IMG/VR virus record: IMGVR_UViG_3300042154_001974
Coordinates: 1-34,119 of that record
Strand: one strand, 5' to 3'
DNA length: 34,119 bases
Source of the DNA: a virus
Shown here: in pieces, positions 18,398 through 34,119 of the stretch
Numbering within the stretch: the stretch's first letter is position 1
Layout of the letters: each line of letters begins with the position of its first letter
Notes under the pieces: model-generated
Database searches by the model: none
What the model was told of the DNA's origin: nothing
The model's input: only the letters and a program-made list of their open reading frames with translations
Position numbers and translations under genes: made by a program

Positions 18398-19285
18398 ATG
18401 AGTTCAGCCTTCAAAACATTAAAACAGTCGGACGTTACAATCGTTCCCTATTCCGCTAATAAACAGTGGAGTATAACAAGTGCGTCTTTAAGTGATTACA
18501 ACATAACTGTTTTTCAAGGTTTAAATACTCCTGTACAAGGATATGGCGGAACTAACCCATCAGGATTAGCCGACTATGTAGGCAGTGGACCTGTATTTAA
18601 TCCATCTACCTTCGCGACCACAACTAATGGTGAATATAAAGCATTAGTTTATCGTTCAATCAAACAACTATACTACCAAAATTACCTAACCAGTTCATGG
18701 TTGCAGTCATCGTCATCATATGACAATTATGATACGTCAACTGCGGGATATGGTACAGGAAATGAGGTAAAAAAATATTTCCCTACAGGATCTAACGAAA
18801 CTATCCAAATATTGTCTATTCCATACAATATATTTGGAAATAATATAGTACCTGCGTCGTTTACTGTCAATAGTAGCGCGTATAACGTTGTTGATGATGG
18901 GGACGGCAACTTGTATGACTCTGATGTTTTAGTCGGTAATATCGCGTATTCTCACGGTATAGCCGTAATAACTAACCAATTATATCAAAATATTTTCACT
19001 AGTTCATTTAATTTGGCATTTAAGGGTGATACTACCATTTATAACAACGAAATACGTTGTAATATCAATGAAAATGACTTTAACATGTCATTAAACCCAT
19101 CAATCATATCAGATGGTAGTGGTTCAATGTATTCATTTGCTACACAATCTTATTTTCATCCATACGCAACAACTGTTGGTTTATATAATGATACTAATGA
19201 GTTACTTGCTGTAGCTAAGCTTAGTACTCCAATTCCTATACCATCTAACACTGATATGACATTTGTTGTTAAATTTGATACATAA
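18398..19285 (+). CDS. Virion structural protein, paralogue of the previous gene
   Basis: A 295-residue protein starting four bases after the previous stop codon. An overlapping ATG at 18394 is in another frame and was not chosen. Segments such as TNGEYKALVYRSIKQLYYQN and NEVKKYFPTGSNETIQILSI resemble marine-phage structural proteins. The C-terminus (ATTVGLYNDTNELLAVAKLS, ending VVKFDT) is shared with the preceding gene, so the two are tandem paralogues. It is the last gene of the structural block; its stop overlaps the start of the ParB-like gene by one base. Confidence 0.6.
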   Translation: MSSAFKTLKQSDVTIVPYSANKQWSITSASLSDYNITVFQGLNTPVQGYGGTNPSGLADYVGSGPVFNPSTFATTTNGEYKALVYRSIKQLYYQNYLTSSWLQSSSSYDNYDTSTAGYGTGNEVKKYFPTGSNETIQILSIPYNIFGNNIVPASFTVNSSAYNVVDDGDGNLYDSDVLVGNIAYSHGIAVITNQLYQNIFTSSFNLAFKGDTTIYNNEIRCNINENDFNMSLNPSIISDGSGSMYSFATQSYFHPYATTVGLYNDTNELLAVAKLSTPIPIPSNTDMTFVVKFDT

Positions 19286-19668
19286 TGATTAAATTAATAA
19301 ACATATTAAAAGAGATAAAAGAAGATATTAAAATAGTCTTATATAATAAAGGGAAAGATGTAGGAGCAGATTTAGATTTTTCTGATGAAGATATTAAGAA
19401 TGCTCCTAAAGTACAGATACCCCTTAGCAAGCTGGTTCGCTATGAACCCGCTATAAAGATGAAATCACCTGAATCTATTAAAATTGTTAAGCGCTTAGTT
19501 AGTAAATATAAGAGTGGCAAAACAATAGATCCAATATTAGTTCGTAAAAAAGGAAATAAATTTCAAATTTTAGATGGTCACCATAGATATACTGCAGCTA
19601 AACTCGCAGGTTTATCAAGCATAAATGCTATCATAGTCCCAGATGAAAATATCACAAAAGGTGAGTAA
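19285..19668 (+). CDS. ParB/Srx-like domain protein with N-terminal capsid-targeting-like peptide
   Basis: A 127-residue protein. Residues 1-10 (MIKLINILKE) match the recurring short N-terminal peptide of this window and end in L-x-E, a possible prohead-protease site. Residues 40-120 are a ParB/sulfiredoxin-type domain: IPLSKLVRYEP, then DPILVRKKGNKFQILDGHHR (D97, H99, H100, R101) and YTAAKLAG. Members act as DNA-binding partition factors, nucleases or NTP-using enzymes; which applies here is unknown. There is no HTH domain, so it is not a full plasmid ParB. It overlaps the last structural gene by one base. Packaging into the head is inferred only from the N-terminal peptide. Confidence 0.75.
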   Translation: MIKLINILKEIKEDIKIVLYNKGKDVGADLDFSDEDIKNAPKVQIPLSKLVRYEPAIKMKSPESIKIVKRLVSKYKSGKTIDPILVRKKGNKFQILDGHHRYTAAKLAGLSSINAIIVPDENITKGE

Positions 19669-19680
19669 TAATTAAAGTTT

Positions 19681-20142
19681 ATGAATAAATGGTTGCATTA
19701 CCTAGATGATGGTACACTCGCTGAGTGGCCAGAAATATTAGAACCACAATATTATGGTTTTATCTATATTATCCGAAATAAAACAAATAATAAGTTTTAT
19801 ATAGGTAAAAAAGCATTCTTCCACAACAAGAAGAAGAAACTCACCAAAAAAGAATTAGCTGAACAATCCGGACCAGGACGTAGGTCAACTACTAAAACCG
19901 AACAGGTAGATAGTGGATGGAAAGCATATTGGGGCAGTTCTAAAGAATTACTCGCGGATGTGAAGCAATTAGGTGAAGATCAATTTGAACGTGTTATATT
20001 ACAATTCTGTGATACTAAAAAACAACAAACATATTATGAGATATATCATCAAATTGTATATGGAGTTCTACATACCGAGAATTGCTATAATGATAACATT
20101 TTAGGCAAGTTCTTCCGTAAAGATTTGGCCCCGCAGGAATAA
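19681..20142 (+). CDS. GIY-YIG family endonuclease
   Basis: A 153-residue protein with a GIY-YIG core: G26-F-I-Y29 (YYGFIYIIRN) and Y40-I-G42 (FYIGKKAF), followed by a basic segment (HNKKKKLTKKEL) and later YEIYHQIVYGVL with conserved-looking Glu and Tyr. GIY-YIG enzymes make DNA nicks or double-strand breaks; in T4-like phages they include homing endonucleases (Seg) and the host-DNA-degrading EndoII. The usual homing-enzyme DNA-binding repeats are not visible, so a non-homing role in DNA processing is possible. It lies between the tail module and the primase gene, a place where free-standing endonucleases often insert. Confidence 0.75.
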   Translation: MNKWLHYLDDGTLAEWPEILEPQYYGFIYIIRNKTNNKFYIGKKAFFHNKKKKLTKKELAEQSGPGRRSTTKTEQVDSGWKAYWGSSKELLADVKQLGEDQFERVILQFCDTKKQQTYYEIYHQIVYGVLHTENCYNDNILGKFFRKDLAPQE

Positions 20143-20159
20143 GACGTTAACTTCTATGC

Positions 20160-21098
20160 ATGCTAAATGCCGCATTAGTAAGTACAGTAAATAGTGTGTT
20201 GGGTAAGGGAAAAGAAACAAGTGGTAATAACTACGCGTACCATTGTCCATTCTGTCAACATCATAAGCCAAAACTAGAGGTTAATCTAGTACCTAACTCC
20301 AAAGGTGAGAACTTTTGGCATTGTTGGGTTTGCAACGCTAAAGGCAAATCCTTACTTGGTTTATTCAAGAAACTTAAGGTACCTCAAGACAAAATACTTG
20401 AGTTACGTTCTATACTCAACTACACTGATAAGAAGGATGAGGAAGAAGTAGATATTACTAAAATAGAGTTACCCAAAGAATACAAATCATTACTCAGTAT
20501 ACAACGTACAGATATTTCAGCTAAACATGCATTAGCATATCTTAAGAAACGAGGTATTACTAAAGAAGATATTCTCAAATATAATATTGGTTTTTGTGAG
20601 GAAGGACGTTACAAAAATATGATTGTAGTACCATCGTATAATAAAGATGGGTCTATTAATTATTTTATTGCTCGTTCATTTGAAAAAGATCCATCACGCA
20701 AGTATGATAGTCCTAAGTGTAATAAAAACGCTATTATTGGACTAGAATATTTTATTAATTGGGATATACCAGTTATACTATGTGAAGGTATATTTGATGC
20801 TATTGCTATTAAGCGTAATGTAATACCATTATTTGGTAAAACAATTCCTAAGGCATTGATGATGAAACTAGTAGAAACTAACGTTAAAACAGTTTATATA
20901 GCGTTAGATAAGGATGCTCTTAAGGATGCTTTGAAATACGCTGAGGAATTACTTAACTTGGGTAAAGACGTTTATCTGGTGGATTTAGATGATAAGGATC
21001 CATCTGAAATGGGTTTTGAGAAATTTACCTCATTAGTCCATAAAGCAGAACAACTAACATTAAGTGAATTAATATATAAAAAAATAGAACTATCATGA
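20160..21098 (+). CDS. 61: DNA primase, gp61-like (zinc finger plus Toprim)
   Basis: A 312-residue protein of the DnaG-type primase architecture, short as in T4 gp61 (342). A zinc-binding domain has Cys29, Cys32 (CPFC), Cys55 and Cys58 (CWVC). The Toprim domain contains CEGIFDA (Glu209) and an Asp-rich motif ALDKDALKDA, with a final VDLDDKDPSEMGF. It would make RNA primers for lagging-strand synthesis with a gp41-type helicase, which is not in this window. Its stop overlaps the next start (ATGA). All catalytic motifs appear intact. An ATG at 20160 with the zinc finger at residue 29 fits the family. Confidence 0.88.
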   Translation: MLNAALVSTVNSVLGKGKETSGNNYAYHCPFCQHHKPKLEVNLVPNSKGENFWHCWVCNAKGKSLLGLFKKLKVPQDKILELRSILNYTDKKDEEEVDITKIELPKEYKSLLSIQRTDISAKHALAYLKKRGITKEDILKYNIGFCEEGRYKNMIVVPSYNKDGSINYFIARSFEKDPSRKYDSPKCNKNAIIGLEYFINWDIPVILCEGIFDAIAIKRNVIPLFGKTIPKALMMKLVETNVKTVYIALDKDALKDALKYAEELLNLGKDVYLVDLDDKDPSEMGFEKFTSLVHKAEQLTLSELIYKKIELS

Positions 21099-21883
21099 TA
21101 GACAAAAACGCAAACATCATCAAGGATCCTAAGATTAAAAGGATTGTTGAGTACAGTGAAGACAACAAACAAATAAATGTATTAGACCAACGTTTCTATA
21201 GACGAAATGATGCTTACTACCCATCAGTATCTAGTATATTGAATTATTTTCCTAAGAATCAATTTTTCCATTCATGGTTAAAGGATGTAGGGCATAATAG
21301 TGATATTATTGCTAATAAAGCCGCCGCTGAAGGTACTCAAGTACACAACGCGGTTGAATCATTTATCAATGGTGAGGAAATTTCATGGATTGATGAGTAT
21401 GGTAATGCTAAGTATTCACTAGATGTATGGAAGATGATACTTAAATTTGCTGACTTTTGGAATAGATTTAAACCAGAATTAGTGGCTGCTGAGTACCATT
21501 TATTCTCAGATGAACACAAATACGCTGGAACTGCTGACTTAATTGTTAAATTCCGTGATAAATTGTGGTTAATGGATGTTAAAACGTCAAATTCACTACA
21601 TACTTCGTACGATTTACAGTTAGCTGCGTATGCTAAAGCGTGGAATGAAACACATAATGAGAAAATTGAGGAAACAGGTATTATATGGTTAAAAGCAAAT
21701 ACACGTGGAGAAGATAAAAAAGGCGAGAAAGTTCAAGGTAAAGGTTGGGAATTAAAACATATTAGTGACATCGATACTAATTTCAAGATATTCCAAAATA
21801 TATACGAGATATATAGACTTGAAAACCCTGACGCTAAACCTGCTACTGAAACGTTACCTACAACTGTTAAATTAGCTGAGTAA
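21095..21883 (+). CDS. PD-(D/E)XK nuclease, RecB/Cas4-like
   Basis: A 262-residue protein. The nuclease core is visible: Glu near residue 134 (LVAAEYHLFS), Asp148 in AGTADLIV, D161-V-K163 in LMDVKTSN, and the downstream QxxxY (DLQLAAYAKAW) typical of RecB/AddB-type exonucleases. An upstream segment AAAEGTQVHNAVESFING is also typical of that group. It overlaps the primase stop by four bases and is probably co-translated, so a role in replication or recombination is likely. The four-Cys iron-sulfur cluster of Cas4 is absent. It ends just before a candidate late promoter. Confidence 0.82.
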   Translation: MIDKNANIIKDPKIKRIVEYSEDNKQINVLDQRFYRRNDAYYPSVSSILNYFPKNQFFHSWLKDVGHNSDIIANKAAAEGTQVHNAVESFINGEEISWIDEYGNAKYSLDVWKMILKFADFWNRFKPELVAAEYHLFSDEHKYAGTADLIVKFRDKLWLMDVKTSNSLHTSYDLQLAAYAKAWNETHNEKIEETGIIWLKANTRGEDKKGEKVQGKGWELKHISDIDTNFKIFQNIYEIYRLENPDAKPATETLPTTVKLAE

Positions 21884-21884
21884 A

Positions 21885-21892
21885 TATTTATC
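21885..21892 (+). promoter_or_regulatory. Candidate late promoter core TATTTATC
   Basis: TATTTATC in the 28-base gap after the PD-(D/E)XK gene, 19 bases before the ATG at 21912. It differs from the majority octamer by the last base and matches the copy at 31276. It would drive the accessory block that begins with the nucleotidyltransferase fusion. Confidence 0.45.
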
Positions 21893-21911
21893 GTCAGTTA
21901 AAAATAACAAT

Positions 21912-23216
21912 ATGCCATCTAACTATATATCATTGTCTTCATTATTAAAAGAAGAAGAATCTAATAATCTCGCTAACCCAGCGGGAATAGTATTCTATCC
22001 TGGTAACTTCAAACCACCACATAAGGGACACTATGCATCTGTTATGGAATTGGCCGCTAGAGCATACACAATCAAAATTATTGTTATTATTAGTAGTAAA
22101 ACTAATGACAATATCACACCTGATGAAAGTATGGCTATTTGGGATATATTCTTAAAAGCTAACCCAAATCCAAAAATAGAAATTAGACTATCAAATAACA
22201 AAACACCAATACAAGACATATTCCAAGCATTTGATGGTGATTTGAATTTAAAAGCATATGTTGCATTGGGTGCTGGTGAGGCTGATGATGCGAGTTATAT
22301 TCAAGCACTTACTAAAGCATTTGGTACTAGAGTAATGCCATTATATGTTCAAGAGAAATTTTTAGTTAATGGCGCTCCTATCTCAAGCACATATGTTAGA
22401 GAAGTTATAGTTAGACTTAATCAATACGCTGCCGCAGTTCGTTCAACACAAAGAGATACAACTGACTTTAGTAAAGCTAGAAATGGATATCTTAACACAC
22501 TAGAGGAATTTAAGAATTGTTTTCCTGATGCTGTTATGCAAAAAGGATTTTTTGATGATATAATGCGTGTATTAGGTATTGATTATATTTCTGTAGATGA
22601 ATTACAAGAAAATACATTTGATGTTAGTTGGTGGAAGAGAATATTAAATGAAAATGAGGAAAAAGAACAAGCAATACATAAATTTATTGACTTTGCTAGG
22701 TTAGAATTAGGATTAAAAGTACTACCTCAAATAGAATTACTTGATGATTCAAGTATGGCTAAGGATATGCGTTCATTAGGTGGTTATAATCCATCTAGTA
22801 ATAAACTATTAGTTATCACTAATAATAGATTAACAGCGGATATTTTAAGAACTATCGCTCATGAATTAGTACACCGTAAACAAGATGAAGACAACCAACT
22901 TAATCCTGATTCAGGCTTAACAGGCTCACCTGAAGAAAATGAAGCTAACGCTATGGCTGGTGTGTTGTTAAGAAAGTATGGTGAACAACATGAAGAAATA
23001 TATGAAAGTTTAAGTGGTGTTGGTAAGGGCAAGAATTTAGAAGATATAGCTAAGCATCATAGTGTTGATATTAATGTTATTAAACAAGAACTTAAAAAAG
23101 GTCTTAATGTAGAAATGGAACATACTAAAGATAAGAAAACAGCACTTAAAATTGCTATTGATCATTTATGGGAAGACCCAAAATATTACACTAAATTGGC
23201 TAAAGCTAAGTTATAA
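21912..23216 (+). CDS. Nucleotidyltransferase (NMNAT/CoaD-type) fused to a zincin metallopeptidase and a DUF5661-like tail
   Basis: A 434-residue multidomain protein. Residues 1-14 (MPSNYISLSSLLKE) end in an L-x-E site like the packaging-type peptides elsewhere in the window. Residues 25-175 form a HIGH-type nucleotidyltransferase: H37-K-G-H40 in GNFKPPHKGHY and ISSTYVRE (157-164), the ATP-binding pair of NMN/nicotinate-mononucleotide and pantetheine-phosphate adenylyltransferases. Residues 255-365 hold H317-E-L-V-H321 followed by a Glu-rich SPEENEANA segment (341-344), a zinc metallopeptidase signature. The end (VEMEHTKDKKTALKIAIDHL) resembles DUF5661. All motifs look intact. The substrate is unknown; NAD synthesis is one possibility. 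A transcription unit probably starts here. Confidence 0.8.
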   Translation: MPSNYISLSSLLKEEESNNLANPAGIVFYPGNFKPPHKGHYASVMELAARAYTIKIIVIISSKTNDNITPDESMAIWDIFLKANPNPKIEIRLSNNKTPIQDIFQAFDGDLNLKAYVALGAGEADDASYIQALTKAFGTRVMPLYVQEKFLVNGAPISSTYVREVIVRLNQYAAAVRSTQRDTTDFSKARNGYLNTLEEFKNCFPDAVMQKGFFDDIMRVLGIDYISVDELQENTFDVSWWKRILNENEEKEQAIHKFIDFARLELGLKVLPQIELLDDSSMAKDMRSLGGYNPSSNKLLVITNNRLTADILRTIAHELVHRKQDEDNQLNPDSGLTGSPEENEANAMAGVLLRKYGEQHEEIYESLSGVGKGKNLEDIAKHHSVDINVIKQELKKGLNVEMEHTKDKKTALKIAIDHLWEDPKYYTKLAKAKL

Positions 23217-23217
23217 T

Positions 23218-23586
23218 ATGGTTGGTAAAAAGTTTCATGGTTATGATTGGATTGAAATAGCACCTAACAATTATACTTTTAATACCCCAGGTAACAAGTA
23301 TATAGTTGAATTTGAAAATCAAGGTAATGATGACTACAATGTAGTATTCAAAACTGTTGATAAACTTGAAGACTCAACTAACGAAGGTGTTCAATTTAAA
23401 GTTATGGCTACTATACTAGAAATAGTTCAGCACTTTATTGCGGCTTATCCATATAAAGCACTTACCTTCAAACCCAGAGATGGGCGTCGACATAAGTTGT
23501 ATAAGTTATTTATAGACAATAATTTTTCACCTAACGACTATCATTTCTATTTCAGACCCGATATAATAAAAATGGTTAAAAAATGA
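23218..23586 (+). CDS. Conserved phage protein, untagged paralogue of the 25443 gene
   Basis: A 122-residue protein. I chose the ATG at 23218 because an earlier in-frame ATG at 23152 would lie inside the preceding gene and add residues unlike any homologue. The body (YTFNTPGNKYIVEF, YNVVFKTVDKLEDS, VMATILEIVQHFIAAYP, HKLYKLFIDNNF, ending in KK) aligns along its length with the product of the gene at 25443. Unlike that protein it lacks the MIKLTNILQE-type N-terminus. The fold seems alpha/beta; function unknown. A stray TATTTATA inside it (23507) is presumably chance. Its stop overlaps the start of the HAD gene. Confidence 0.65.
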   Translation: MVGKKFHGYDWIEIAPNNYTFNTPGNKYIVEFENQGNDDYNVVFKTVDKLEDSTNEGVQFKVMATILEIVQHFIAAYPYKALTFKPRDGRRHKLYKLFIDNNFSPNDYHFYFRPDIIKMVKK

Positions 23587-24053
23587 GTTATACAATTTAT
23601 TGCGATTTAGATGGAGTATTAGTTGATTTCGCTGGTGGATATTTTAAGTTAACAGGCTTAAACATATCAAAATACCAACCAAGTACTCCTCAATTTTGGA
23701 TACCTGTTGATAGAGAAGGACCAAGATGGTGGGCTACTTTGAATTGGATGAATGATGGAAAATTATTATGGGATTATATTAAAGGTTATAAACCACATAT
23801 TCTATCATCTCCATCACGAAGTAATAGCTCTAGAATAGGTAAAGACGCTTGGGTGAGAATGAATTTAAAACCTGACTATAAGTCATTGTTACTATATCCA
23901 AGACATGAAAAACAAAATTTTTCTGGTGAAAATAAAATATTAATAGATGACATGGCTAATACTATTGAGGAATGGAACGCTAAAGGTGGCGTTGGCATTC
24001 ACCACACATCAACAGCAGATACTATTAAACAACTTAAAGAATTAGGGTTATGA
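23583..24053 (+). CDS. HAD-superfamily phosphatase, 5'(3')-deoxyribonucleotidase-like
   Basis: A 156-residue protein with HAD motif I at residues 8-12 (D8-L-D10-G-V, nucleophile and acid/base Asp), a motif II Ser in ILSSPSR, a basic region with WVRMNLKP, and the motif IV acidic pair in ILIDDMANTIEEW. Size and the short cap fit the 5'(3')-deoxyribonucleotidase branch, which removes phosphate from deoxynucleoside monophosphates. In a phage it would help tune dNTP pools. It overlaps both neighbours by four bases, so the three genes are probably translated together. No capsid-targeting-like N-terminus is present. Confidence 0.8.
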   Translation: MSYTIYCDLDGVLVDFAGGYFKLTGLNISKYQPSTPQFWIPVDREGPRWWATLNWMNDGKLLWDYIKGYKPHILSSPSRSNSSRIGKDAWVRMNLKPDYKSLLLYPRHEKQNFSGENKILIDDMANTIEEWNAKGGVGIHHTSTADTIKQLKELGL

Positions 24054-24631: not shown

Positions 24632-24648
24632 CATATTCCATTATTCCA

Positions 24649-24662
24649 TATTTATATTTATA
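24649..24662 (+). promoter_or_regulatory. Double candidate late promoter core (TATTTATATTTATA)
   Basis: Two overlapping copies of TATTTATA (24649-24656 and 24655-24662) lie in the 48-base gap before the ATG at 24680; the second ends 17 bases upstream. A doubled motif might give two start points or simply reflect AT-rich slippage. Confidence 0.5.
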
Positions 24663-24679
24663 TACGAAATTTCACAAAT

Positions 24680-25087
24680 ATGGATATTAATATCTCAACG
24701 GCTCCTCAAGGCGCACCTACTGAAGTAATGGCGAACTTTGTTTCAACATTATTTCATTCTCGTACTCAAGCGCACACTTTTCATTTACAAACTAATTCAT
24801 TCGCTGCTCATAAAGCACTAAACAAATACTATGATAGTATCATTGATTTAGTTGACAGTTTAATAGAATCATATCAAGGCCGTTACGGTGTATTAAAGGG
24901 ATACAAAGGCATGGCTGATGTGTTGGAATATGATGAAAATGTAGTAGTTAAATACTTTGAAGCACTTTGCATGTATGTTGAGAAAAACAGACCATTGCTC
25001 CCACAAGACTCATACATCCAGAACCAAATTGATGAGCTTATAGCGTTAATTGAATCCACTAAATATAAGTTAATCTACCTACACTAA
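24680..25087 (+). CDS. Ferritin/Dps-like helical protein (DUF5856-like)
   Basis: A 135-residue, all-helical protein. Its first helix (FHSRTQAHTFHLQTNSFAAH) and second helix (LNKYYDSIIDLVDSLIESYQ) carry His, Glu and Asp at spacings like those of ferritin-like four-helix proteins; I recall the family as DUF5856 in phages. Dps-type proteins bind DNA and oxidise iron, but the ferroxidase ligands cannot be confirmed here. It follows a doubled late-promoter-like motif, and its stop overlaps the start of the next gene. There is no capsid-targeting-like N-terminus. Confidence 0.6.
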   Translation: MDINISTAPQGAPTEVMANFVSTLFHSRTQAHTFHLQTNSFAAHKALNKYYDSIIDLVDSLIESYQGRYGVLKGYKGMADVLEYDENVVVKYFEALCMYVEKNRPLLPQDSYIQNQIDELIALIESTKYKLIYLH

Positions 25088-25443
25088 TGGTTAAATTATC
25101 TACCATATTAGCGGAGTTACTATCCGAAGCGGAAAACCCAAACGTTTACAAGTTTAGAGGTATTTTAATTACTGATACTGAAAACCGCGGACAAACAGAA
25201 ATATTATCTGATATACGTTCTATAGCAGGTGTTACAGTAGCAACATCTAAGGAATTGCCTACATCAGGAGATGTTACAGGTGCTAAATTCTATAAGACAG
25301 AACTTAATCTAAAGATTGACCCCCATCCATATAAAGGATTCTCAAGTCAAACACTTAAAACTATAGTTAACGATATTAAACGAATTGAAGGAGTAAGAAA
25401 CTTTACTCCTATTGGTAACGTTCAATTAACAAAACCATATTAG
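25087..25443 (+). CDS. Tagged small protein with ferredoxin-like repeat
   Basis: A 118-residue protein. The N-terminus MVKLSTILAELLSEAENPNV matches the recurring peptide and contains two possible L-x-E cleavage points (ILAE and LLSE before Ala). The body shows two similar halves, each with strand-helix-GV-strand: DIRSIAGVTV and DIKRIEGVRNF. This is the pattern of a ferredoxin-like beta-alpha-beta sandwich that I recall from phage proteins of unknown function. Its start overlaps the previous stop (TAATG) and its stop shares one base with the GTG start of the next gene. The packaged-protein role is inferred from the N-terminus alone. Confidence 0.65.
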   Translation: MVKLSTILAELLSEAENPNVYKFRGILITDTENRGQTEILSDIRSIAGVTVATSKELPTSGDVTGAKFYKTELNLKIDPHPYKGFSSQTLKTIVNDIKRIEGVRNFTPIGNVQLTKPY

Positions 25444-25862
25444 TGATTAAGTTAACTAACATATTACAAGAAGTACTAACTGAAGTTGGTGAAATCCAAA
25501 ACCCATATAAATGGAAATATGATTTTGTTGATGATGATGGTAACTACTTCTATTCATTTCGTACTCCTGAAAACAAATACACAGTTGGTATCACTTGGAA
25601 TGGTAATAACACATATGAATTATTATTTAATACTGTTGAGGAAATGGGAAGAGATACTCAAGAGAATGTAGCATTACGTGTGTTGTCTACAGTATTTGAA
25701 ATAGGATTAGACTTTGTCAAAAAACACCAACCAGATGATTTTATAGCTAGACCCACAGAACAAAAACGTGCTCGTGTATATAAAACATATATGGAAAAGA
25801 ATTTACCTGATGGATATAAATTAGTGACAATGGCTGACACATATCATTGGATAAAAAAATAA
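25443..25862 (+). CDS. Tagged paralogue of the 23218 gene (GTG start)
   Basis: A 139-residue protein. Translation begins at a GTG that shares its G with the preceding TAG; this start gives MIKLTNILQEVLTEVGE, matching the ATG-initiated peptides elsewhere, which supports the GTG choice. Residues 20-139 align with the 23218 gene product (NYFYSFRTPENKYTVGI, YELLFNTVEEMGRDTQENVA, STVFEIGLDF, ARVYKTYMEKNLP, ending KK). The paralogue lacks this N-terminus, so the peptide behaves like a detachable tag. Function of the body is unknown. Confidence 0.7.
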   Translation: MIKLTNILQEVLTEVGEIQNPYKWKYDFVDDDGNYFYSFRTPENKYTVGITWNGNNTYELLFNTVEEMGRDTQENVALRVLSTVFEIGLDFVKKHQPDDFIARPTEQKRARVYKTYMEKNLPDGYKLVTMADTYHWIKK

Positions 25863-25872: not shown

Positions 25873-26079
25873 ATGACACTACTTAAATTATTAAATGCAG
25901 TGAACACACCTGAAGCAAATACAGCTGGATTAGTAACAACATGCCTAGCGGCGCTAAATACATTCTTTCAAATGTTTAATCCTATCCTAACAGGATTATT
26001 TTACATTGCTTCTATAGGATGGCTATGTGTACAAATGTATTACAGAATCAAAGATAAAAAACGCAAAAATGACAAATAG
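25873..26079 (+). CDS. Small membrane protein, candidate holin
   Basis: A 68-residue protein with a hydrophobic centre (about 19-56: GLVTTCLAALNTFFQMFNPI and ILTGLFYIASIGWLCVQMYY) that can form two membrane helices with a Pro turn, and a very basic C-terminus (RIKDKKRKNDK). Size, topology and charge fit a holin, which makes holes in the inner membrane so that endolysin can reach the wall. A GH19 endolysin gene lies about 2.5 kb downstream. Not adjacent, so the role is likely but unproven. Its stop lies within the next gene, which starts at 26069. Confidence 0.55.
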   Translation: MTLLKLLNAVNTPEANTAGLVTTCLAALNTFFQMFNPILTGLFYIASIGWLCVQMYYRIKDKKRKNDK

Positions 26080-26260
26080 TAAATTACGCGCTTTAGTAAA
26101 AGAAATCATTCAAGAAAAACTTAAACCCTCAATGGGCGCAGGTGAGTACATTTCTGATTTTGAAAAATCTAAAGCACCTCAATTTAGAGGTAAGTCTAAA
26201 GAGAAAAGACAAAAAATGGCTGTAGCCGCTTATTTATCTGCTAAAGACAAAAAGAAATAA
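26069..26260 (+). CDS. Small basic protein with packaging-type N-terminus
   Basis: A 63-residue, very basic protein. I chose the ATG at 26069 rather than the in-frame ATG at 26027 because the latter lies deep in the candidate holin. The N-terminal helix (KLRALVKEIIQEKLKP) ends in an I-x-E/E-K step like other accessory proteins here. The body PSMGAGEYISDFEKSKAPQF followed by RGKSKEKRQKMAVAAYLSAK is a motif I recall from phage hypotheticals. Basic character suggests DNA binding. Its last base is the first base of the next start (TAATG). Confidence 0.6.
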   Translation: MTNSKLRALVKEIIQEKLKPSMGAGEYISDFEKSKAPQFRGKSKEKRQKMAVAAYLSAKDKKK

Positions 26261-26493
26261 TGAAACTAATAGACGCTCTACTACTAGAAGGACCAATTGA
26301 ATACCCAGCTGACCATCAGCCTGGTATGAGGGTGACTAAAGGTGGTTCTATGTGTGCTAACTGTGAATATTGGGTAGCAAAAGGTAACAAATGTAATAAC
26401 AAATATTGGCTACAATGGAATGATGATAAAGCTGAAGTTCCATATCCCGCTGATGAATATTGCTGCAATTGGTGGCATCCAACTAATAAGTAA
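26260..26493 (+). CDS. Cys-rich small protein with packaging-type N-terminus
   Basis: A 77-residue protein. It opens MKLIDALLLEGPIEYP, where LLLE before Gly is a good [LI]-x-E step. Five Cys follow in the pattern C32-x2-C35 (CANCEYW), C45 (NKCNNKYW) and C68-C69 (EYCCNWWHP), with many Trp and Tyr. The arrangement resembles small metal-binding folds, such as high-potential iron-sulfur proteins or a zinc knuckle; I cannot tell which. The last Cys-Cys-x-W-W is unusual. Function unknown; co-expression with the flanking basic proteins is likely from the tight spacing. Confidence 0.62.
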   Translation: MKLIDALLLEGPIEYPADHQPGMRVTKGGSMCANCEYWVAKGNKCNNKYWLQWNDDKAEVPYPADEYCCNWWHPTNK

Positions 26494-26494
26494 C

Positions 26495-26947: not shown

Positions 26948-26952
26948 AAACT

Positions 26953-27318: not shown

Positions 27319-27319
27319 T

Positions 27320-28507
27320 ATGAACGAGTTATTAGATATATTAAATGAAACAGATCCTAAAGTAGGTACAGGAAAAAAACCTAAAGGATCAGGCCGTCGT
27401 TTATATACTGATGAAAATCCAAAAGATACTGTAAGTATTAAATTTAAAACAACTCAAGATATAAAAGATACTTTATCAAAATCATCATTTAAGTCTAAAC
27501 CACATGCTCGTAAATCACAAATTATTAATGTAATTCATCAACGTGTAAGAGCAGCATATAGTAAAGCTAAAGATCCTGATGTAAAATCTCGTTTAAAACG
27601 TGCTTTAGACTATATTGAAAAACGTAGAGAAGCATCTAAAGCAAAAACACAACGTTTAAATAAAATGAAAGAAAATATTGATCCATCTGAGGCGTACAGC
27701 AATGTTGGCTCTGTTCAAACATTAGTTAATGGTAAAAGAAAAGTAGCTATGATTGCTTTAAGAGGACAATCTGATGCTGCTGAAACTATTAAAATAATTA
27801 ATGATAACGGACTTAAAAAAATAGGTATAGACCAAAGACCAGGGGCTGAAGTATATGTAGTGTATGTTCCTGGAGCTGAAGCAGATGCTAAAGAATTTAC
27901 TAATATAATTAATAGATACGGTGGGTATGCTTCTTCTAAAGCATCATATGAAGATACTAAACGTATGGGTGAATTATTGGGTTATAAGAAATCAACTATA
28001 GATGCTTTCCTTGTTAAGAATTACAATGATGATAAATCATTAAAAGAAAATATAACAGAAATGAATTGGAAACAAGCATTAGCTGGAGCCGGAATTACTT
28101 TAATGTCATTAGGTACTCCTAAAACAGGACAAGCGCAAAATTTTCAAGGACTAAAAGATAAGGTTAAGCAAGGTGTATCTTTTGTTCAAAGTAAAATACA
28201 AAAGAAACAAGACGAGCCAAAAACTGTAATGATACCTGGCAAACGAACTCAAGATAGAGATTTAGAAAAAATAAGAAAAGAATGGAGTGGGTATAATAGT
28301 GATTCTACTACATCTAAAGCGTTTGGTGAAGCTGTTGGACAAACAGAATCAGCAGCAAGAATGGCAGCTCGTGCAAATGCTAGAACTCAAATTTTTAAAA
28401 AAATGAAAACAGACCAAGCTAGTTTTGGTAGTTTTATAGTAGATGAAGCTATGTGGCAATTGCCAAATGGTAATTACCAAGCTATGGTGGTTATGGATAA
28501 AAATTAA
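27320..28507 (+). CDS. Tagged multidomain protein (DUF5824-like start, LPP20-like end)
   Basis: A 395-residue protein. I chose the ATG at 27320, two bases after the preceding stop, because it gives MNELLDILNETDPKVGTGKK with the ILNE step seen in other tagged proteins; the longer in-frame start at 27236 overlaps the upstream gene. Residues 16-120 (KPKGSGRRLYTDENPKDTVS, then KPHARKSQIINVIHQRVRAA) look like the phage DUF5824 family. A middle alpha/beta part (VAMIALRGQSDAAETIKIIN) follows a Lys-rich linker. The end (QTESAARMAARANARTQIF) has an LPP20/SIMPL-like look. Two KENI segments with nearby Glu could be internal processing sites. Function unknown. Confidence 0.65.
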   Translation: MNELLDILNETDPKVGTGKKPKGSGRRLYTDENPKDTVSIKFKTTQDIKDTLSKSSFKSKPHARKSQIINVIHQRVRAAYSKAKDPDVKSRLKRALDYIEKRREASKAKTQRLNKMKENIDPSEAYSNVGSVQTLVNGKRKVAMIALRGQSDAAETIKIINDNGLKKIGIDQRPGAEVYVVYVPGAEADAKEFTNIINRYGGYASSKASYEDTKRMGELLGYKKSTIDAFLVKNYNDDKSLKENITEMNWKQALAGAGITLMSLGTPKTGQAQNFQGLKDKVKQGVSFVQSKIQKKQDEPKTVMIPGKRTQDRDLEKIRKEWSGYNSDSTTSKAFGEAVGQTESAARMAARANARTQIFKKMKTDQASFGSFIVDEAMWQLPNGNYQAMVVMDKN

Positions 28508-28509
28508 AC

Positions 28510-28517
28510 CATTTATA
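28510..28517 (+). promoter_or_regulatory. Weak late-promoter-like octamer CATTTATA
   Basis: CATTTATA lies in the 19-base gap before the endolysin ATG at 28527, nine bases upstream of it. It differs from the consensus octamer at the first base. It may give the lysis gene its own start or be chance. Confidence 0.25.
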
Positions 28518-28526
28518 TAAAATAAT

Positions 28527-29126
28527 ATGAACTTAAATAAATTAAAAGGACACATACCTGACAAAGTAATTGAACAAATTCCAGGAGTAATGGAAAAGTT
28601 CCAAATCAATACCCCATTACGTTTAGCTCATTTTTTAGCTCAATGTGGACATGAAAGTGGTGGATTTAGATTAACAAAAGAGAATTTAAATTATTCAGCA
28701 AAAGGATTAAATGGTATTTTTAAAAAATATTTTCCTACATTAGAATCAGCTTTGCCTTATGAAAGAAAACCTGAAAAAATTGCTAATAAAGTGTATGGTG
28801 GTAGAATGGGTAACGGTCCTGAATCTACTGGTGATGGAGCTAAGTACTGTGGTCGTGGCTATATCCAATTAACAGGTAAAGATAACTACACAGCATTTGG
28901 TAAATCAATAAACGAAGACATAGCTGCTAACCCAACAGTAGTTGCAGACAAATACGCTTTATTATCAGCGGCTTGGTTCTTTAATAAGAACAAATTACAT
29001 ATAATGGCTGATGGTGGTGCTACAGATGCTGTAGTAACTTCAATTACTAAGCGTGTGAATGGAGGAACTATCGGTTTAGCTGATCGTATTAAACATTTTA
29101 AAGAATATCATAATTTATTATCGTAA
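28527..29126 (+). CDS. GH19-family endolysin
   Basis: A 199-residue protein of the glycoside hydrolase 19 (chitinase/lysozyme) family. The first catalytic region is [10 protein letters not shown] (Glu43); the family's glycine-rich loop appears as [20 protein letters not shown], followed by [14 protein letters not shown]. It would cut the glycan strands of peptidoglycan at lysis. No signal peptide or membrane anchor is seen, so export would depend on a holin; the gene at 25873 is a candidate. It has no packaging-type N-terminus, unlike most neighbours. All catalytic sections appear present and the length is typical for a phage GH19 enzyme without a wall-binding domain. Confidence 0.88.
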
Positions 29127-29488
29127 TGATTAAACTATCCAAAATATTAGAATCAATGGATCCTGTAGGACAAGAAGATTCTGACATCAACAATGATGGA
29201 AAAGTAGATAAAACAGACAAATATCTTCTTAAGCGTCGTAAAGCAATTAGCAAAGCTACAACTAACGAAGGTGGAGATGTTTTAGGTCAACCATCATCTG
29301 ACCATGAAGCTACAATGGCTAAAGGTGAATTAAGAGATATGCTTATGAATGGAGCTAAAGCATACAGAATGATACAACCAGGAACTGAACTTCCAGGTTG
29401 GATATCAGCTTACATTACATTAGCTTCAGACTACATACACAGTGTAACTGAGTATATGACTGAAAAAAACAATGAAGAAACATACTAA
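29126..29488 (+). CDS. Tagged small protein with EF-hand/dockerin-type calcium loop
   Basis: A 120-residue protein. Residues 1-9 (MIKLSKILE) are the recurring N-terminal peptide. A canonical EF-hand/dockerin loop lies at 20-31: D20-I-N22-N-D24-G-K-V-D28-K-T-D31, followed by a helix ([13 protein letters not shown]) as in dockerin repeats. Only one loop is visible, so it is not a full dockerin pair. The C-terminal half is helical ([20 protein letters not shown]). It starts on the last base of the endolysin stop and ends on the first base of the next ATG. A calcium-dependent fold is likely; its role is unknown. Confidence 0.68.
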
Positions 29489-30435: not shown

Positions 30436-30448
30436 ATAAACAAGCTTG

Positions 30449-30474
30449 GCTGCCCAAATAAGGGCAGCTATTTT
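30449..30474 (+). terminator. Rho-independent terminator
   Basis: A 7-bp stem GCTGCCC/GGGCAGC with a 6-base AAATAA loop is followed by TATTTT. It lies 13 bases after the stop of the Pro/Glu-rich gene and ahead of the exonuclease gene. High GC in an AT-rich gap and the T-run make a terminator likely. Confidence 0.82.
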
Positions 30475-30495
30475 CATGTTAACCAATATATCGTT

Positions 30496-31275
30496 ATGAT
30501 AGAAAACAAGAAGAAAAGACTATTCTTTGACATAGAGACTAGTCCAAACATCGGATTCTTTTGGTCTGCAGGGTACAAATTAAATGTACCATACAGCAAT
30601 ATTATCAAAGAAAGAGCCATTATCTGTATCTGCTATAAATGGGCAGGTGAAGATAAGGTTTATTCATTAACTTGGGATAACAACCAAGACGACAAAAAAA
30701 TGTTAGAAAAATTCATAAGCATCGCAAACGAAGCATCTGAATTAGTGGGTCATAATGGAGATAAATTTGATTTACCTTGGATTAGGACACGTTGCCTATT
30801 CCATCGTATACCTGTTTTCCCAACATACACTACAATTGACACTTTAAAACACTCACGCTCTAAATTTAGATTCAATTCGAATCGTTTAGACTATATCGCT
30901 CAGTATTTGAAGGTAGGTGAAAAATTAGAGACTGGTGGTTTCGACTTATGGAAAGAAATTGTCTTAAATAAGGATAAGGAATCATTAGAGAAAATGGTAA
31001 CATATTGTAAAAATGATGTTACTATACTTGAAAAAGTACACGATCAATTATCTAACTATGTTCCCCATAAAACACATTATGGTGTAGCAAATGGTGGTGA
31101 AAAGTATTCATGTCCTGAATGTGGATCTGAAGATTTACGTTTCTCACAAAAACGCTATACTGCAACTGGTACACCACGTATTCAATTACAATGTAATGAG
31201 TGTCATAAGTATCATACTGTTTCTAACAGAGTTTATGAAGCTAAAACCGCTAAGGAAGCGAAAGTAGAAGAATAA
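30496..31275 (+). CDS. DEDDy 3'-5' exonuclease with C-terminal zinc ribbon
   Basis: A 259-residue protein of the RNase H-like DEDDy exonuclease group (YprB/DnaQ-like). ExoI is FFDIETS (D12, E14), ExoII is GHNGDKFDLPW (D92), and ExoIII is Y170-C-K-N-D174, with Tyr in place of His. A zinc ribbon follows: C206-P-E-C209 and C233-N-E-C236, absent from plain DEDDy enzymes. It would remove 3' nucleotides from DNA or RNA; the ribbon probably grips nucleic acid. It is the first gene after a terminator and has no clear TATTTATA motif before it, so it may have an early-type promoter or rely on read-through. Confidence 0.82.
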   Translation: MIENKKKRLFFDIETSPNIGFFWSAGYKLNVPYSNIIKERAIICICYKWAGEDKVYSLTWDNNQDDKKMLEKFISIANEASELVGHNGDKFDLPWIRTRCLFHRIPVFPTYTTIDTLKHSRSKFRFNSNRLDYIAQYLKVGEKLETGGFDLWKEIVLNKDKESLEKMVTYCKNDVTILEKVHDQLSNYVPHKTHYGVANGGEKYSCPECGSEDLRFSQKRYTATGTPRIQLQCNECHKYHTVSNRVYEAKTAKEAKVEE

Positions 31276-31283
31276 TATTTATC
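31276..31283 (+). promoter_or_regulatory. Candidate late promoter core TATTTATC
   Basis: TATTTATC directly follows the stop of the exonuclease gene and ends three bases before the ATG at 31287. As with the 7075 copy, a normal late start point would fall at or inside the start codon, so this copy may be leaderless or not functional. Confidence 0.35.
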
Positions 31284-31286
31284 AAT

Positions 31287-31673
31287 ATGGCAAGCGACAA
31301 AATTAAAAGACAAATAGTAAAAAGTATCATTAAGGAAATACTTAGTGAAGAAGAAGAAGCACCTGCTTCAACTCCCACTAGTGGACCAACTAAATTACCA
31401 TTGGATGATATCATTCAGTTAATTAAGGATACTAAAGGTGCATTTTTCACTGTTAAGTTTATTAAGAAAGATGGTACTGAACGCACCATGAACTGTCGCT
31501 TGGGAGTTAAAAAATATCTACATGGTGGTGAATTGCCGTACGATCCAGTAGCTAAAGGTTTATTGCCTGTATGGGATCCGATCGCCGCTAAAACGTCCGA
31601 CGGTTATCGTATAATCAACACTAAAACGATTTTATTCGCTAAAATTGGCGGTAAAGAATACGAACCAGCATAA
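31287..31673 (+). CDS. WYL_2/Sm-like (DUF2693-like) protein with packaging-type N-terminus
   Basis: A 128-residue protein. The N-terminus KIKRQIVKSIIKEILSEEEE is a basic amphipathic helix ending in I-L-S-E, then a Ser/Thr/Pro linker (APASTPTSGPTK). The remaining 85 residues, with FFTVKFIKKDGTERTMNCRL, the segment LHGGELPYDPVAKGLLPVWD, and a final TILFAKIGGKEYEP, match the small beta-barrel family known from T4-like phages as WYL_2 or DUF2693. These are Sm/SH3-like folds thought to bind nucleic acid. It is followed by a terminator. Confidence 0.7.
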   Translation: MASDKIKRQIVKSIIKEILSEEEEAPASTPTSGPTKLPLDDIIQLIKDTKGAFFTVKFIKKDGTERTMNCRLGVKKYLHGGELPYDPVAKGLLPVWDPIAAKTSDGYRIINTKTILFAKIGGKEYEPA

Positions 31674-31701
31674 TTACCATATTCAAAAATTAACGTTAAA
31701 T

Positions 31702-31733
31702 AATGCGTCTTACTAACAATAAGGCGCATTTTT
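31702..31733 (+). terminator. Rho-independent terminator
   Basis: A 10-bp stem AATGCGTCTT/AAGGCGCATT with one G-T pair, a 9-base loop and a following T-run (TTTTT counted from the end of the stem). It lies 28 bases after the WYL_2-like gene and just upstream of a candidate promoter at 31740. Confidence 0.82.
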
Positions 31734-31739
31734 ATTACA

Positions 31740-31747
31740 TATTTATA
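31740..31747 (+). promoter_or_regulatory. Candidate late promoter core TATTTATA
   Basis: TATTTATA directly follows the terminator, 14 bases before the ATG at 31762. Terminator-then-promoter order is what a boundary between two transcription units should look like, which strengthens the promoter reading of this octamer. Confidence 0.55.
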
Positions 31748-31761
31748 ATATATTACTACCA

Positions 31762-33819
31762 ATGACGCGATTATCCAATATATTACAAGAAGTTTTGCTA
31801 AGAGAATACACAGAAAAGACAATAAATGATACTATTGCTAGATGGGGTATTGATTCTAATGATAAAGCCGCTGTTAATGCTGCTCGTCAATTAATTCAAC
31901 AATTTGATCAAAAGAAATCATCATTAGCACAGAAACTAGACATAATTGTACTACCAGATGATTTAAAACAAAATAATAATTATCTTAACATTGATAAGTA
32001 TTCTTACAATGATATGGTAAACTTACTTAAGTCTTTACCTCAAAACGAGGAGAAAATTAAGAAAGAAGCCATTAAGAAATTTGTTGATAAAGAGCAAATA
32101 GACAAAACTACAGCTCAATCATACGTGGCTCGCTTCATGAATAAGAAGAAAGATTTAAAGTATGCTGTTGAGAATGGTACTGAAGATGAAAGATTCACTA
32201 AGGAGGAAGTTAAGAAATTTATACCTGCTCGTTTGTTAGCTAATGATTTATATTTAGATCCTCGTAATTACAGATGGCAAAGTTTAGAGCAAATGCTAGA
32301 TGCTTTATTTCCAACACAAATTAAAGTTGGAGAGGAAGGTGAAAACTTAGCTGAAACTGACGCTGATAAGATATATAGTAAAGGAGATATTGAGGTTTAT
32401 AAGTGTGATGAAGTACATAAGTGTATTCAATACAATCCTACAGTAGCATCAACTAACAGAAAAAAATATGGTTGGTGTGTCGCACAACCCGGAAATACTA
32501 ACTACGATTATTATCGATTCAAAGAAGAAGCACCTACATTTTATTTTATTTTTGATCGTAGTAAAACATCAGCTCCTGAACATTCTTATTTTGATGATCC
32601 GTACCATGCAATCGCTTTGCAAGCTAATGCTGATGGTAAATCATATGTAGTCACTAATGCTGATAATGCTGGAGATAATAAAGCCGCTAGTTGGGATGAT
32701 ATATCTAAAATTGTTCCTGCTGACACTTGGGCTAAAATTAAAAACTTAAAAGAATTATTCAAACCAGTAGCGTTATCAGGTAGTGAACGTGCTAGAAAGT
32801 TTGCTCAAGGTAAAAATTTATCTGTTGATGAATTTAAGGAATTAACTCAAGATGAGAAAATAATGTATGTTCAAGCTAAAGCAATGAAAAACGCTTTGAA
32901 ACAAGACATACTAAGCATATTACCTAAATATAAGATTTCACTTGAAGGTAGAACTACTACTTTAGCTAATATTGCTATTGATAGTGGTCAAAAATTCACT
33001 TACGCTGACTTAAAAGATTATCCATCATTAGCTAGTCGTTATGCTATATATCGTTTTAGACATACAGACTATAGTAAAACACCTATACCATTACCTTTCA
33101 TTCAGTATCTAGATGAGCCTGCTAAGGAAAAGTATATGGATGCTTATGATAATGTTTTATCTCTTGAGTTAGTAGAAAAATATTTTGGAGAAAAATCATC
33201 TAAGGAGTTTGTTAAGAAACATCTTAAAGAATTAGATTACTTACCTCCATCTGCTATCAAGTACATTGATAATGATAAATTAAAAAATTTATTTTCAATA
33301 TATAGTAAGTTATTTGTTAACTGGAAATTTGGAGAAAATCTTAATCCTGATGAAGAGAAAATGGCTACATTTTTTGATTCACCAAACCAAGATGTAGATC
33401 CTGCTCCTATTTTAGCTAAACAGTGGCTTACATTATCACCACAAGAAAGAAAAACATTACTTGATCTAGCTAATAAGGTGAATGGGGATCAAAAATACTT
33501 AACAATGCTTTACGCATTACCATTCTTTATCCAATCAGGAGGAAACTATTATACTCTACTACCAGTAGAAGAAACTGAAGGACGTTACACAAATTGGGTA
33601 TTATTAGATAGTAATGGTAAAGTAGTAGAATCAAATATTGATGGTGATGAATCATTCATTAATGATGAAAGTATAAGTGGAGGATATTTCTCAGACAATG
33701 AATCACCTAAACGTGTTTATAGCGCTAAAGAAGTAACACTTAATGGCTCACCTGCCTCTAGTGTGTTAAAAGAAGAAGCGGATAGGTTAAAACAATTAGC
33801 TAATATCAAGAATGATTAA
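31762..33819 (+). CDS. Tagged 685-residue protein with GWCVA...FYFIFD motif
   Basis: A 685-residue protein. Residues 1-15 (MTRLSNILQEVLLRE) are the recurring N-terminal peptide with two L-x-E steps. Residues 20-160 are helical and Lys/Glu-rich. Residues 200-300 hold a domain with GWCVAQPGNTNYDYY (W238, C239), FKEEAPTFYFIFDRSK and HAIALQA; I have seen similar G-W-C-x-A then F-Y-F-I patterns in large-phage proteins but know no name. The second half is helical, with a beta-rich end (GNYYTLLPVEETEGRYTNWV). No catalytic signature is certain; Cys239 is a candidate. It has its own promoter-like octamer after a terminator. Its end overlaps the next tagged gene by eight bases. Confidence 0.68.
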   Translation: MTRLSNILQEVLLREYTEKTINDTIARWGIDSNDKAAVNAARQLIQQFDQKKSSLAQKLDIIVLPDDLKQNNNYLNIDKYSYNDMVNLLKSLPQNEEKIKKEAIKKFVDKEQIDKTTAQSYVARFMNKKKDLKYAVENGTEDERFTKEEVKKFIPARLLANDLYLDPRNYRWQSLEQMLDALFPTQIKVGEEGENLAETDADKIYSKGDIEVYKCDEVHKCIQYNPTVASTNRKKYGWCVAQPGNTNYDYYRFKEEAPTFYFIFDRSKTSAPEHSYFDDPYHAIALQANADGKSYVVTNADNAGDNKAASWDDISKIVPADTWAKIKNLKELFKPVALSGSERARKFAQGKNLSVDEFKELTQDEKIMYVQAKAMKNALKQDILSILPKYKISLEGRTTTLANIAIDSGQKFTYADLKDYPSLASRYAIYRFRHTDYSKTPIPLPFIQYLDEPAKEKYMDAYDNVLSLELVEKYFGEKSSKEFVKKHLKELDYLPPSAIKYIDNDKLKNLFSIYSKLFVNWKFGENLNPDEEKMATFFDSPNQDVDPAPILAKQWLTLSPQERKTLLDLANKVNGDQKYLTMLYALPFFIQSGGNYYTLLPVEETEGRYTNWVLLDSNGKVVESNIDGDESFINDESISGGYFSDNESPKRVYSAKEVTLNGSPASSVLKEEADRLKQLANIKND

Positions 33820-34119
33820 ACTAACAGAAATATTAAACGAGTACAAAGTAAACAAACCTACTACTTACAAGTATAAGGTAGGTGAAATTGTACGTGAATT
33901 ATATGGTGATGAAGAATCATGTAAAATATTAGATAGAAGACCTAATTGGGAAGCGGTAATATCAAATCCCACTAATCGGGAATATATATTTCAACATCCA
34001 TATGAAGATGATAATACAATAAATGAACCTTGGTATTTGATTCAATGGTTAGAGCATAATAAAGATGCTAGTCCAACATGGTGGACAGAAGAAGAATTAC
34101 AACCATATAACAATATTGA
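33812..34119 (+). CDS. Tagged protein, partial at window end
   Basis: An ATG at 33812 within the end of the 685-residue gene opens a frame of 102 codons that is still open at the last base. It begins MIKLTEILNEYKVNKPTTYK, again the recurring peptide with an L-x-E step at residues 8-10. The body is rich in acidic and aromatic residues (RRPNWEAVISNPTNREYIFQ, then NEPWYLIQWLEHNK and SPTWWTEEEL), suggesting a small SH3-like or beta fold. No family recognised. The shared start peptide is the main evidence that the frame is real. Confidence 0.65.
   Translation, partial: MIKLTEILNEYKVNKPTTYKYKVGEIVRELYGDEESCKILDRRPNWEAVISNPTNREYIFQHPYEDDNTINEPWYLIQWLEHNKDASPTWWTEEELQPYNNI

Follow-up and report, generated by a model that had tools for sequence, protein, structure and literature searches.

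A probable T4-type capsid targeting peptide heads many unrelated proteins in an exchangeable gene block of an aquatic phage group

We identified a short N-terminal peptide, here called class A, on otherwise unrelated proteins encoded in a virus fragment of 34,119 bases (IMG/VR record IMGVR_UViG_3300042154_001974), which was analysed over its whole length and is referred to below as the window. In its strict form the peptide reads M-x-[KR]-L-x-x-[IL]-L-x-E. The tagged genes make up a block of exchangeable cassettes that lies between baseplate genes and terminase, and class A is probably a capsid targeting sequence of the T4 type. We do not claim common descent with the T4 peptide; judged from its sequence, class A would work in the same way. 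Through the hydrophobic residues 4 and 7 the fresh translation product would bind to the prohead core, the phage's own gp21-type protease would cut after Glu-10 ([LI]-x-E) and thereby free the cargo in the head, and the freed cargo, present in the virion, would enter the cell together with the DNA. The pattern suggests that a large and changeable set of proteins may be packed for delivery in this manner.

The baseplate wedge protein of the window is 46.6% identical to its counterpart in Flavobacterium phage immuto (160 kb) and 45.5% identical to that of Microcystis phage Mel-JY01, both of which have T4-type head and tail genes. A contig of 79.8 kb (IMGVR_UViG_3300042549_005585, hereafter G008 or the twin) contains the full window with 34,110 of 34,119 bases identical, and because the two are near-identical over this whole length, G008 was used as further sequence of the same phage. 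Enrichment of the tag was counted in a related set of 17 genomes or contigs, to which the window and its twin do not belong. The block was taken to start about 3.5 kb ahead of the primase and to end at the terminase, its limits being set from the positions of these two genes (by hand in five genomes), and genes of IMG/VR records were called with a simple script and not with a gene finder. Peptides were also pooled from 5051 unique proteins (differing in the first 60 residues) of 19 genomes or contigs and 240 fetched loci.

The strict motif heads 48 of 415 block proteins versus 12 of 2203 other proteins of the 17 genomes and contigs (Fisher 8e-29, a value that treats genes as independent, which orthologs are not), and shuffled block N-termini gave a mean of 0.3 matches and a maximum of 2 in 300 shuffles. 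It is present in 16 of the 17, G005 having none, and reaches 8 of 39 block proteins in G004. In the window, five of 40 proteins of at least 45 residues carry it with Glu required (mean of shuffled N-termini, 0.04). Outside the block the window encodes 15 proteins, mostly of tail and baseplate, and the motif is on none of them; it is likewise missing from the window primase and exonuclease. The motif is therefore concentrated in the block and rare elsewhere, and the peptide is not equally common on replication and tail proteins; an equal frequency there would have spoken against the original prediction of a head-cargo tag. By eye, two of the 12 outside matches look like clamp-loader proteins and at least eight look like cargo.

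To examine the last position of the tag, seeds were chosen on the motif's opening part alone. They were required to have Leu and then [IL][IL], while the place of Leu from Met (3-6), the place of Glu (9-12) and Glu itself were left free. Glu came next in 69% of 202 non-redundant seeds versus 11% at 878 internal matches, and after Glu conservation stops, with no residue above 22% in the next 20 columns. Once signal-peptide-like and capsid proteins were set aside, 176 non-redundant N-termini had Glu in 136 cases and Asp in two; among the 136 tags with Glu, this residue is number 10 in 89, and 89 have their first Leu at position 4. In T4, amber-suppressor mutagenesis of IPIII assigned targeting mainly to residues 4 and 7 and processing to 8 and 10, Asp at 10 inhibited processing and not targeting, and gp21 cuts after L/I-X-E (PMC9026906). 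The conserved positions of the tag, 4, 7, 8 and 10, are the functional positions of T4 IPIII, and the pooled tags have hydrophobic residues at 4 and 7 and an [LI]-x-E end with Glu over Asp at P1.

The original prediction stated that the protease is not in the window, and our scan found none there. Further sequence supplied it: in the twin, terminase and portal genes begin about 11 kb past the window end, and a Peptidase S77 gene lies about 17 kb past it (E 3.1e-31; T4 gp21 structure 5jbl, E 9e-18), followed by genes for a scaffold and a gp23-type capsid protein (T4 gp23, E about 1e-28). The tagged proteins and a cognate S77 protease are thus encoded by the same phage. A gp21-type protease was found in 18 of 24 records searched, G008 included; the six without it are contigs of 18 to 102 kb. 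The LxE form predicted for the major capsid protein was also recovered, since a predicted maturation site, Q[AS]KQ[LI][VI]xE, is present in all 14 relatives with the gene. The motif ends at residue 59, and the site was predicted from a weak alignment to mature T4 gp23 (i-Evalue 4.7) that would have the mature protein begin near residue 52. Glu is followed by a small residue at 11 of the 14 sites; a separate tally took an earlier match for Mel-JY01.

Class A is carried by 58 body families (single-linkage clusters). The exact peptide MIKLIDILNE, back-translated, was found at 78 IMG/VR sites representing 52 unique proteins and 29 body families, and none of 74 complete open reading frames (ORFs) behind it is shorter than 40 residues. 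All 71 MIKLIDILNE loci (twin included, and some being contigs already among those studied) share at least one untagged gene with the 19 studied sequences, and 62 of the 71 share at least three. Bodies are unrelated and exchangeable, with gene turnover between near relatives. For example, a zeta-toxin-like kinase body stands behind MISLMQLLKE and, 66% identical, behind MDNFNYKKYIAEGKLLKE; its cluster has 29 tag-bearing members, 27 of them class A and one with a Pfam match of 3.3e-17, and was drawn from a set without untagged homologs. The window's deoxyribonucleotidase has no tag; its counterparts in immuto, G002 and, by eye, G013 have a leader peptide. We did not use a tally of tagged proteins whose homologs carry another tag or none (140 of 232), because many of the 'untagged' partners were near-misses of the regular expression.

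Within the window, the six starts named in the original prediction (19285, 25087, 25443, 29126, 31762 and 33812) all match its peptide M-[IVT]-[KR]-L-x-x-I-L-x-[ES], and the variants that it named at 26260, 27320 and 21912 (MPSNYISLSSLLKEEES) are present as well. The genes, with those that follow in the twin, are:

19285..19668, plus strand: tag MIKLINILKE with a ParB-like body (ParB_N 6.4e-8); 97% ortholog in L128/L129
21912..23216, plus strand: gene with tag-like ISLSSLLKEEES at residues 5-16; relatives MPLNYTSLSSLLKEEES, MSKYKSLSSILKEEES
25087..25443, plus strand: tag MVKLSTILAE, MVKLSTILAELLSE; no Pfam family
25443..25862, plus strand: tag MIKLTNILQE, MIKLTNILQEVLTE, GTG start; DUF6934 under cut-off
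26260..26493, plus strand: tag MKLIDALLLE with a Cys-rich body; no Pfam family
27320..28507, plus strand: tag MNELLDILNE; no Pfam family
29126..29488, plus strand: tag with Ser where others have Glu, dockerin/EF-hand-like body; Dockerin 2.7e-4, just below cut-off
31762..33819, plus strand: tag MTRLSNILQE, MTRLSNILQEVLLRE, 685 residues; no Pfam family
33812..34119, plus strand: start of a module chain, MIKLTEILNE/YKVNKP, cut by the window end; 813 residues in G008
38228, 38587, 39070, 39433, 39794 and 40386 of G008, reversed: further tagged genes with a tag-like start

The bodies proved unrelated, as had been proposed: at E up to 0.05, Pfam gives a ParB N-terminal domain, a cytidylyltransferase-like domain, a sub-cut-off Dockerin or no family. 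The cytidylyltransferase-like match (9.3e-5) is in the 21912 body, together with DUF5661 and a sub-threshold M78 metallopeptidase match. The 25443 protein has a paralog without a tag at 23218-23586. A body like that of 26260 is seen by eye behind MIKLIDLLSE in L132, and a relative of 27320 (83% over 2-119) is found behind MKLIDILNE in L128. The six further tag-bearing genes of G008 lie in tandem between the window end and the terminase, after the gene that the window cuts. Weak PADLOC matches for three of ten proteins (19285, L140 and L132) were not used. The proposed similarity of the tag DNA is only partly borne out. Eleven tags of the twin have a synonymous codon identity of 0.60 versus 0.50 expected from codon usage, and so there is a small synonymous excess, while most of the likeness is explained by the protein and AT-rich codons.

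We also found other peptide types. Class B is a helical peptide, seen in the window at three places:

7086..7550, plus strand: class B peptide MKSAEFLKELRKIIREEIE on the gene adjoining a gp25-like baseplate gene, by sequence
26069..26260, plus strand: class B helical peptide MTNSKLRALVKEIIQEKL, by sequence
31287..31673, plus strand: class B-like peptide MASDKIKRQIVKSIIKEILSE, by sequence

In G004 the body of window 25087 follows a class B peptide, and by way of G004 the same holds for G002: the G004 protein at 52296 (MEKLKKIIREELRKILRE) matches both the window protein and G002 21633 (MNSKLKQIIREEIRKILRE). Similar helices (KIIREEI type) are found on the gene before gp25 in immuto, G002, G003, G004 and Mel-JY01. 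Because the type (IIREEI) is also on this baseplate-cluster gene, it is not head-specific, and we do not claim class B as a head tag. A helix of this kind also heads many unknown proteins near head genes. The class C peptide is also C-terminal in eight of 61 matches; FDLRK[FY]L.ENRK was seen at the protein C-terminus in L207:3189 and seven other loci, and the same kind heads other proteins (MENFDLKKFLVENKL).

Class D, [RKH]xQxLAG[ILVM], occurs 64 times in the 5051 proteins versus 0.43 predicted by composition (homologs each counted). It lies within the first 30 residues in 33 cases, at the C-terminus in 29 and internally in two. Of the 29 C-terminal cases, 27 carry the scaffold N-terminal signature, and 13 of 14 identified scaffolds end in the class D form (in a slightly looser pattern), while 26 of the 33 N-terminal cases continue with phi-phi-x-E. 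On the simplest reading of these sequences, class D cargo would copy the scaffold C-terminus, with a cleavage-like site after it; the scaffold end is presumably the part that meets the shell. In encapsulin cargo-loading peptides and P22 scaffold-fused cargo, cargo is brought in by a short peptide with affinity for an HK97-fold shell. The class D copies of the scaffold end resemble this arrangement, but unlike in encapsulins and P22 the peptide is N-terminal here and is then followed, in those 26 cases, by the phi-phi-x-E site.

Three phages of 18 (the window and its twin as one, G004 and G021) have [YI]K[IV]xxP after the end of the tag, and the resulting junction [LI]xE/[YI]K[IV]xxP (the slash follows the tag end) recurs inside long ORFs. 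The window ORF starting at 33812 has six modules in its 813 residues in G008, and G021 has a chain of 1795 residues with 17 junction matches and one of 500 residues with four. A relative in L204 is without exactly one 98-residue module between two junctions, a 269-residue ORF of L204 joins two modules of which the second is a separate tagged gene in the twin, and the G004 homolog of window 31762 has about 175 extra residues, starting IKVFKP, between tag and body. When 13 residues were tried at P1 of the junction, Glu accounted for 39 of 43 matches, and 30 of these 39 have Leu or Ile at P3. Observed and expected synonymous identities at junctions are 0.53/0.54, 0.62/0.59 and 0.69/0.68. Because these equal expectation, it is the peptide and not the DNA that is kept, and we rejected a copied DNA element or a recombination repeat as the origin of the junction.

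The junction fits a processing site, and it also fits a repeated binding motif. Two observations argue against a plain cleavage site. Both G021 chains start MNE/IK, and since the longer one does so with stops upstream, it has no helical tag; and the junction motif occurs once each (WKEYKINKP, IEEYRIKKP) in another head-cluster protein of the twin, G008 51264 (171 residues), and in the scaffold 54076. The 813-residue chain had no Pfam family at E 0.05, so that no embedded peptidase is seen, and no PADLOC match at 0.01; neither it nor the 1795-residue chain had a match in INPHARED at E 0.1, and its AlphaFold2 model had a mean predicted local distance difference test score (pLDDT) of 35.5. We tentatively propose, as something quite possible, that some phages of this group make cargo polyproteins that are cut in the prohead by the gp21-type protease, and that other cargo copies the scaffold C-terminus to reach the shell. 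A polyprotein ORF (up to 1795 residues) would be brought into the prohead once and then cut into many small effectors, its modules being some 80 to 200 residues long and each following an [LI][ND]E/[YI]K[IV]xxP junction.

Several findings weigh against class A as a T4-type targeting sequence. The T4 proteins compared were 253, translated from the annotation (split genes and some very short ones were left out), and 11 T4 proteins were taken as head-processed. None of the 253 has the strict motif. Our tag profile ranks T4 IPII and IPIII only 106th and 105th of 253 (gp24 is 4th), so sequence similarity to the T4 peptides themselves is lacking; profile likeness is the test that the original capsid-targeting proposal did not pass, whereas the protease, the form of the capsid site, the choice of Glu over Asp and the rarity of the motif elsewhere speak for it. 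Only the looser form phi-x-x-phi-phi-x-E near Met picks out T4 cargo. It is on eight T4 proteins, namely IPII, IPIII, Alt and gp24 plus four that are not known cargo. In our phages it is less specific (55 of 415 block versus 41 of 2203 other proteins); among its matches outside the block are a baseplate-cluster gene (MAVYKIFPEKD type) and the N-terminus of the G002 and G004 terminases. The tagged bodies do not share the basic character of T4 internal proteins: the median is -0.93 charges per 100 residues for tagged and -1.62 for other proteins, compared with +5.6 for T4 IPII and +5.5 for IPIII. Because T4 Alt loses 7 residues (PMC9026906), it is not cut at a Glu-10. The capsid proteins' own N-termini are not consistently tag-like, with ranks from 3 of 196 to 96 of 234, and as the source of class A they are unproven. 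Glu is at position 12 in 21 of the 136 tags, which are rather class B helices, and the strict motif itself admits some such helices (MKKSQLRQIIKE type). Carriage is uneven between genomes: the strict motif is rare in immuto, the one cultured close relative (two of 27 block proteins, of which one is closer to class B, and one of 199 elsewhere), and in Mel-JY01 it is on none of 22 block proteins and one of 219 elsewhere. Tags or tag-like peptides in immuto, whose host is Flavobacterium sp. LMO8, head the genes annotated from 24569, 103366, 109856, 111675 and 112261, and its mature capsid protein would begin behind KQIVSE. In the literature searched, which did not extend to the papers listed with immuto, we found no virion proteome for the group.

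Some of the same evidence would suit other explanations. The tag could dock proteins on the prohead core or shell with Glu-10 as a helix cap or contact, the proteins staying whole. In 76 of 136 tags Glu is followed by a bulky residue (one other than A, S, G, T, N or D), and only 21 of these 76 have a further [LIVMF]xE/small site within 18 residues (control 12%), and the chained modules are conserved beyond Glu ([YI]K[IV]xxP) in a way that a plain L-x-E site does not need. We nevertheless consider this explanation unlikely, because Glu outnumbers Asp by 136 to 2, though Asp would serve as a helix cap too, because all 14 predicted capsid maturation sites share the [LI]xE form, and because conservation in the pooled tags ends at Glu.

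Less probable again is a general amphipathic helix that would dock on a partner outside the head, such as the host membrane, RNA polymerase, the replication complex or the tail. A specific end in Glu, the protease, scaffold and capsid genes adjoining the block, and class D tags that copy the scaffold C-terminus all point to the head instead. The class B helix on the gene before gp25 (at window 7086 and in the five relatives), and its admission by the strict pattern, do favour such a partner. So do the 12 of 2203 tagged genes far from the head block; these, however, are mostly cargo-like by eye, with two chance matches of clamp-loader type, and in the window itself the count outside the block is zero of 15. 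It is extremely improbable that the peptide has no function and owes its likeness to recent duplication and DNA recombination in an AT-rich block. The slight synonymous excess in the twin (0.60 vs 0.50) and the large amount of tag DNA common to its tandem genes 39070, 39433 and 39794 would fit, but at junctions the peptide is kept while the DNA drifts, and the motif recurs in 16 of 17 other genomes and contigs. A T4-type targeting sequence is thus the reading that we prefer.

Most of 30 tagged proteins searched in Pfam have no family above the cut-off. Recognisable cargo families are ParB-like proteins, zeta-toxin-like kinases, an Acb1-like protein and, weakly, a HAD-like hydrolase. The Acb1-like protein, a predicted 2H phosphoesterase (L096:6662-7210, IMG/VR 3300017917_003859) with the tag MIKLVDLLKE, scores 31.3 bits against Pfam Acb1 (cut-off 27) and also matches 2_5_RNA_ligase2 below the cut-off; phmmer gave no PDB match. 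Its two HxT motifs align with T4 57B, which we take to be Acb1, though the T4 record calls it RNA ligase. All seven loci of the Acb1-like protein (among them two near-identical pairs and the query itself) have [LI]xE in a short leader, one leader being of another kind, and its T4 counterpart 57B has no such tag. Four other tagged proteins (L086:10276-10926, L095:2056-2607, L154:4507-4935 and L388:11265-11945) show a YHFT/WHLT...ILK pattern. An ADP-ribosyltransferase look of L086, L095, L154, L388 and L410 was a guess by eye, found no support in Pfam or PHROGs nor, for L410, in PDB sequences, and was set aside; an AlphaFold2 model of YHFT-type cargo had a mean pLDDT of 35.2.

Three observations concern the phage group and the neighbouring genes. 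In bacterial genomes scanned with the twin terminase, two contigs matched, one of them in a Flavobacteriaceae metagenome-assembled genome, which is a weak hint at the host. Mel-JY01 (PP395634.1) was deposited as a Microcystis phage, although its baseplate wedge protein resembles that of the window almost as closely as immuto's does; its host assignment may deserve a check. For window 19681-20142 the best PHROG label is NAD synthetase, with homing endonuclease families next; the immuto record also says NAD synthetase and the Mel-JY01 record GIY-YIG. The protein resembles GIY-YIG by eye, and the NAD synthetase label therefore looks wrong.

In T4, diverse internal proteins share a conserved targeting peptide (PMC3012670, PMC9026906). 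As in the T4 propeptides of IPI, IPII, IPIII, Alt and gp24, the peptide here is short and N-terminal with hydrophobic residues 4 and 7; as in T4 IPIII, it has an [LI]-x-E end at 8-10, and as in T4 an S77 protease and a gp23-type capsid protein are encoded by the same phage and the bodies are unrelated and exchanged. Unlike in T4, there are far more carriers, the consensus is MIKLxxILxE and not MKTYQEFIAE, the bodies are not basic, one type of tag copies the scaffold, and modules are chained in one ORF. In phage P1, an N-terminal address of DarB was enough for a foreign protein to enter the head (PMC9024508). The Dar proteins resemble our case in this address and have an antirestriction role as cargo; no consensus of their N-termini is reported there, in contrast to the one consensus on dozens of body families here. 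Inner head proteins of phiKZ and SPN3US are trimmed by the prohead protease and injected (PMC5694885), as we propose for the tagged proteins, but several propeptides there exceed 100 residues, compared with about 10 here. Polyvalent proteins (Iyer et al. 2017, PMC5512222) hold many effector domains per polypeptide and are thought to be packaged and injected. Our modules differ in being joined by the repeated [LI]xE/[YI]K[IV]xxP junction and in occurring also as separate tagged genes, and in the 813-residue chain we found no fused effector, peptidase or polymerase domains of the polyvalent kind. In the literature searched we found no report of the tag in this phage group, of scaffold-copying tags or of head-protease polyprotein cargo.

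In conclusion, if class A works as proposed, injected head cargo would be a main arm of an aquatic and little-studied group of phages. The tag would then provide a simple rule that marks dozens of unknown families as likely early effectors, including an Acb1-like enzyme directed against the cyclic-oligonucleotide-based antiphage signalling system (CBASS) and zeta-toxin-like kinases. The T4 targeting rule (positions 4, 7, 8 and 10) would be valid well outside the near relatives of T4, the scaffold end would be reusable as an address label, and head proteases would perhaps release effectors from polyproteins.

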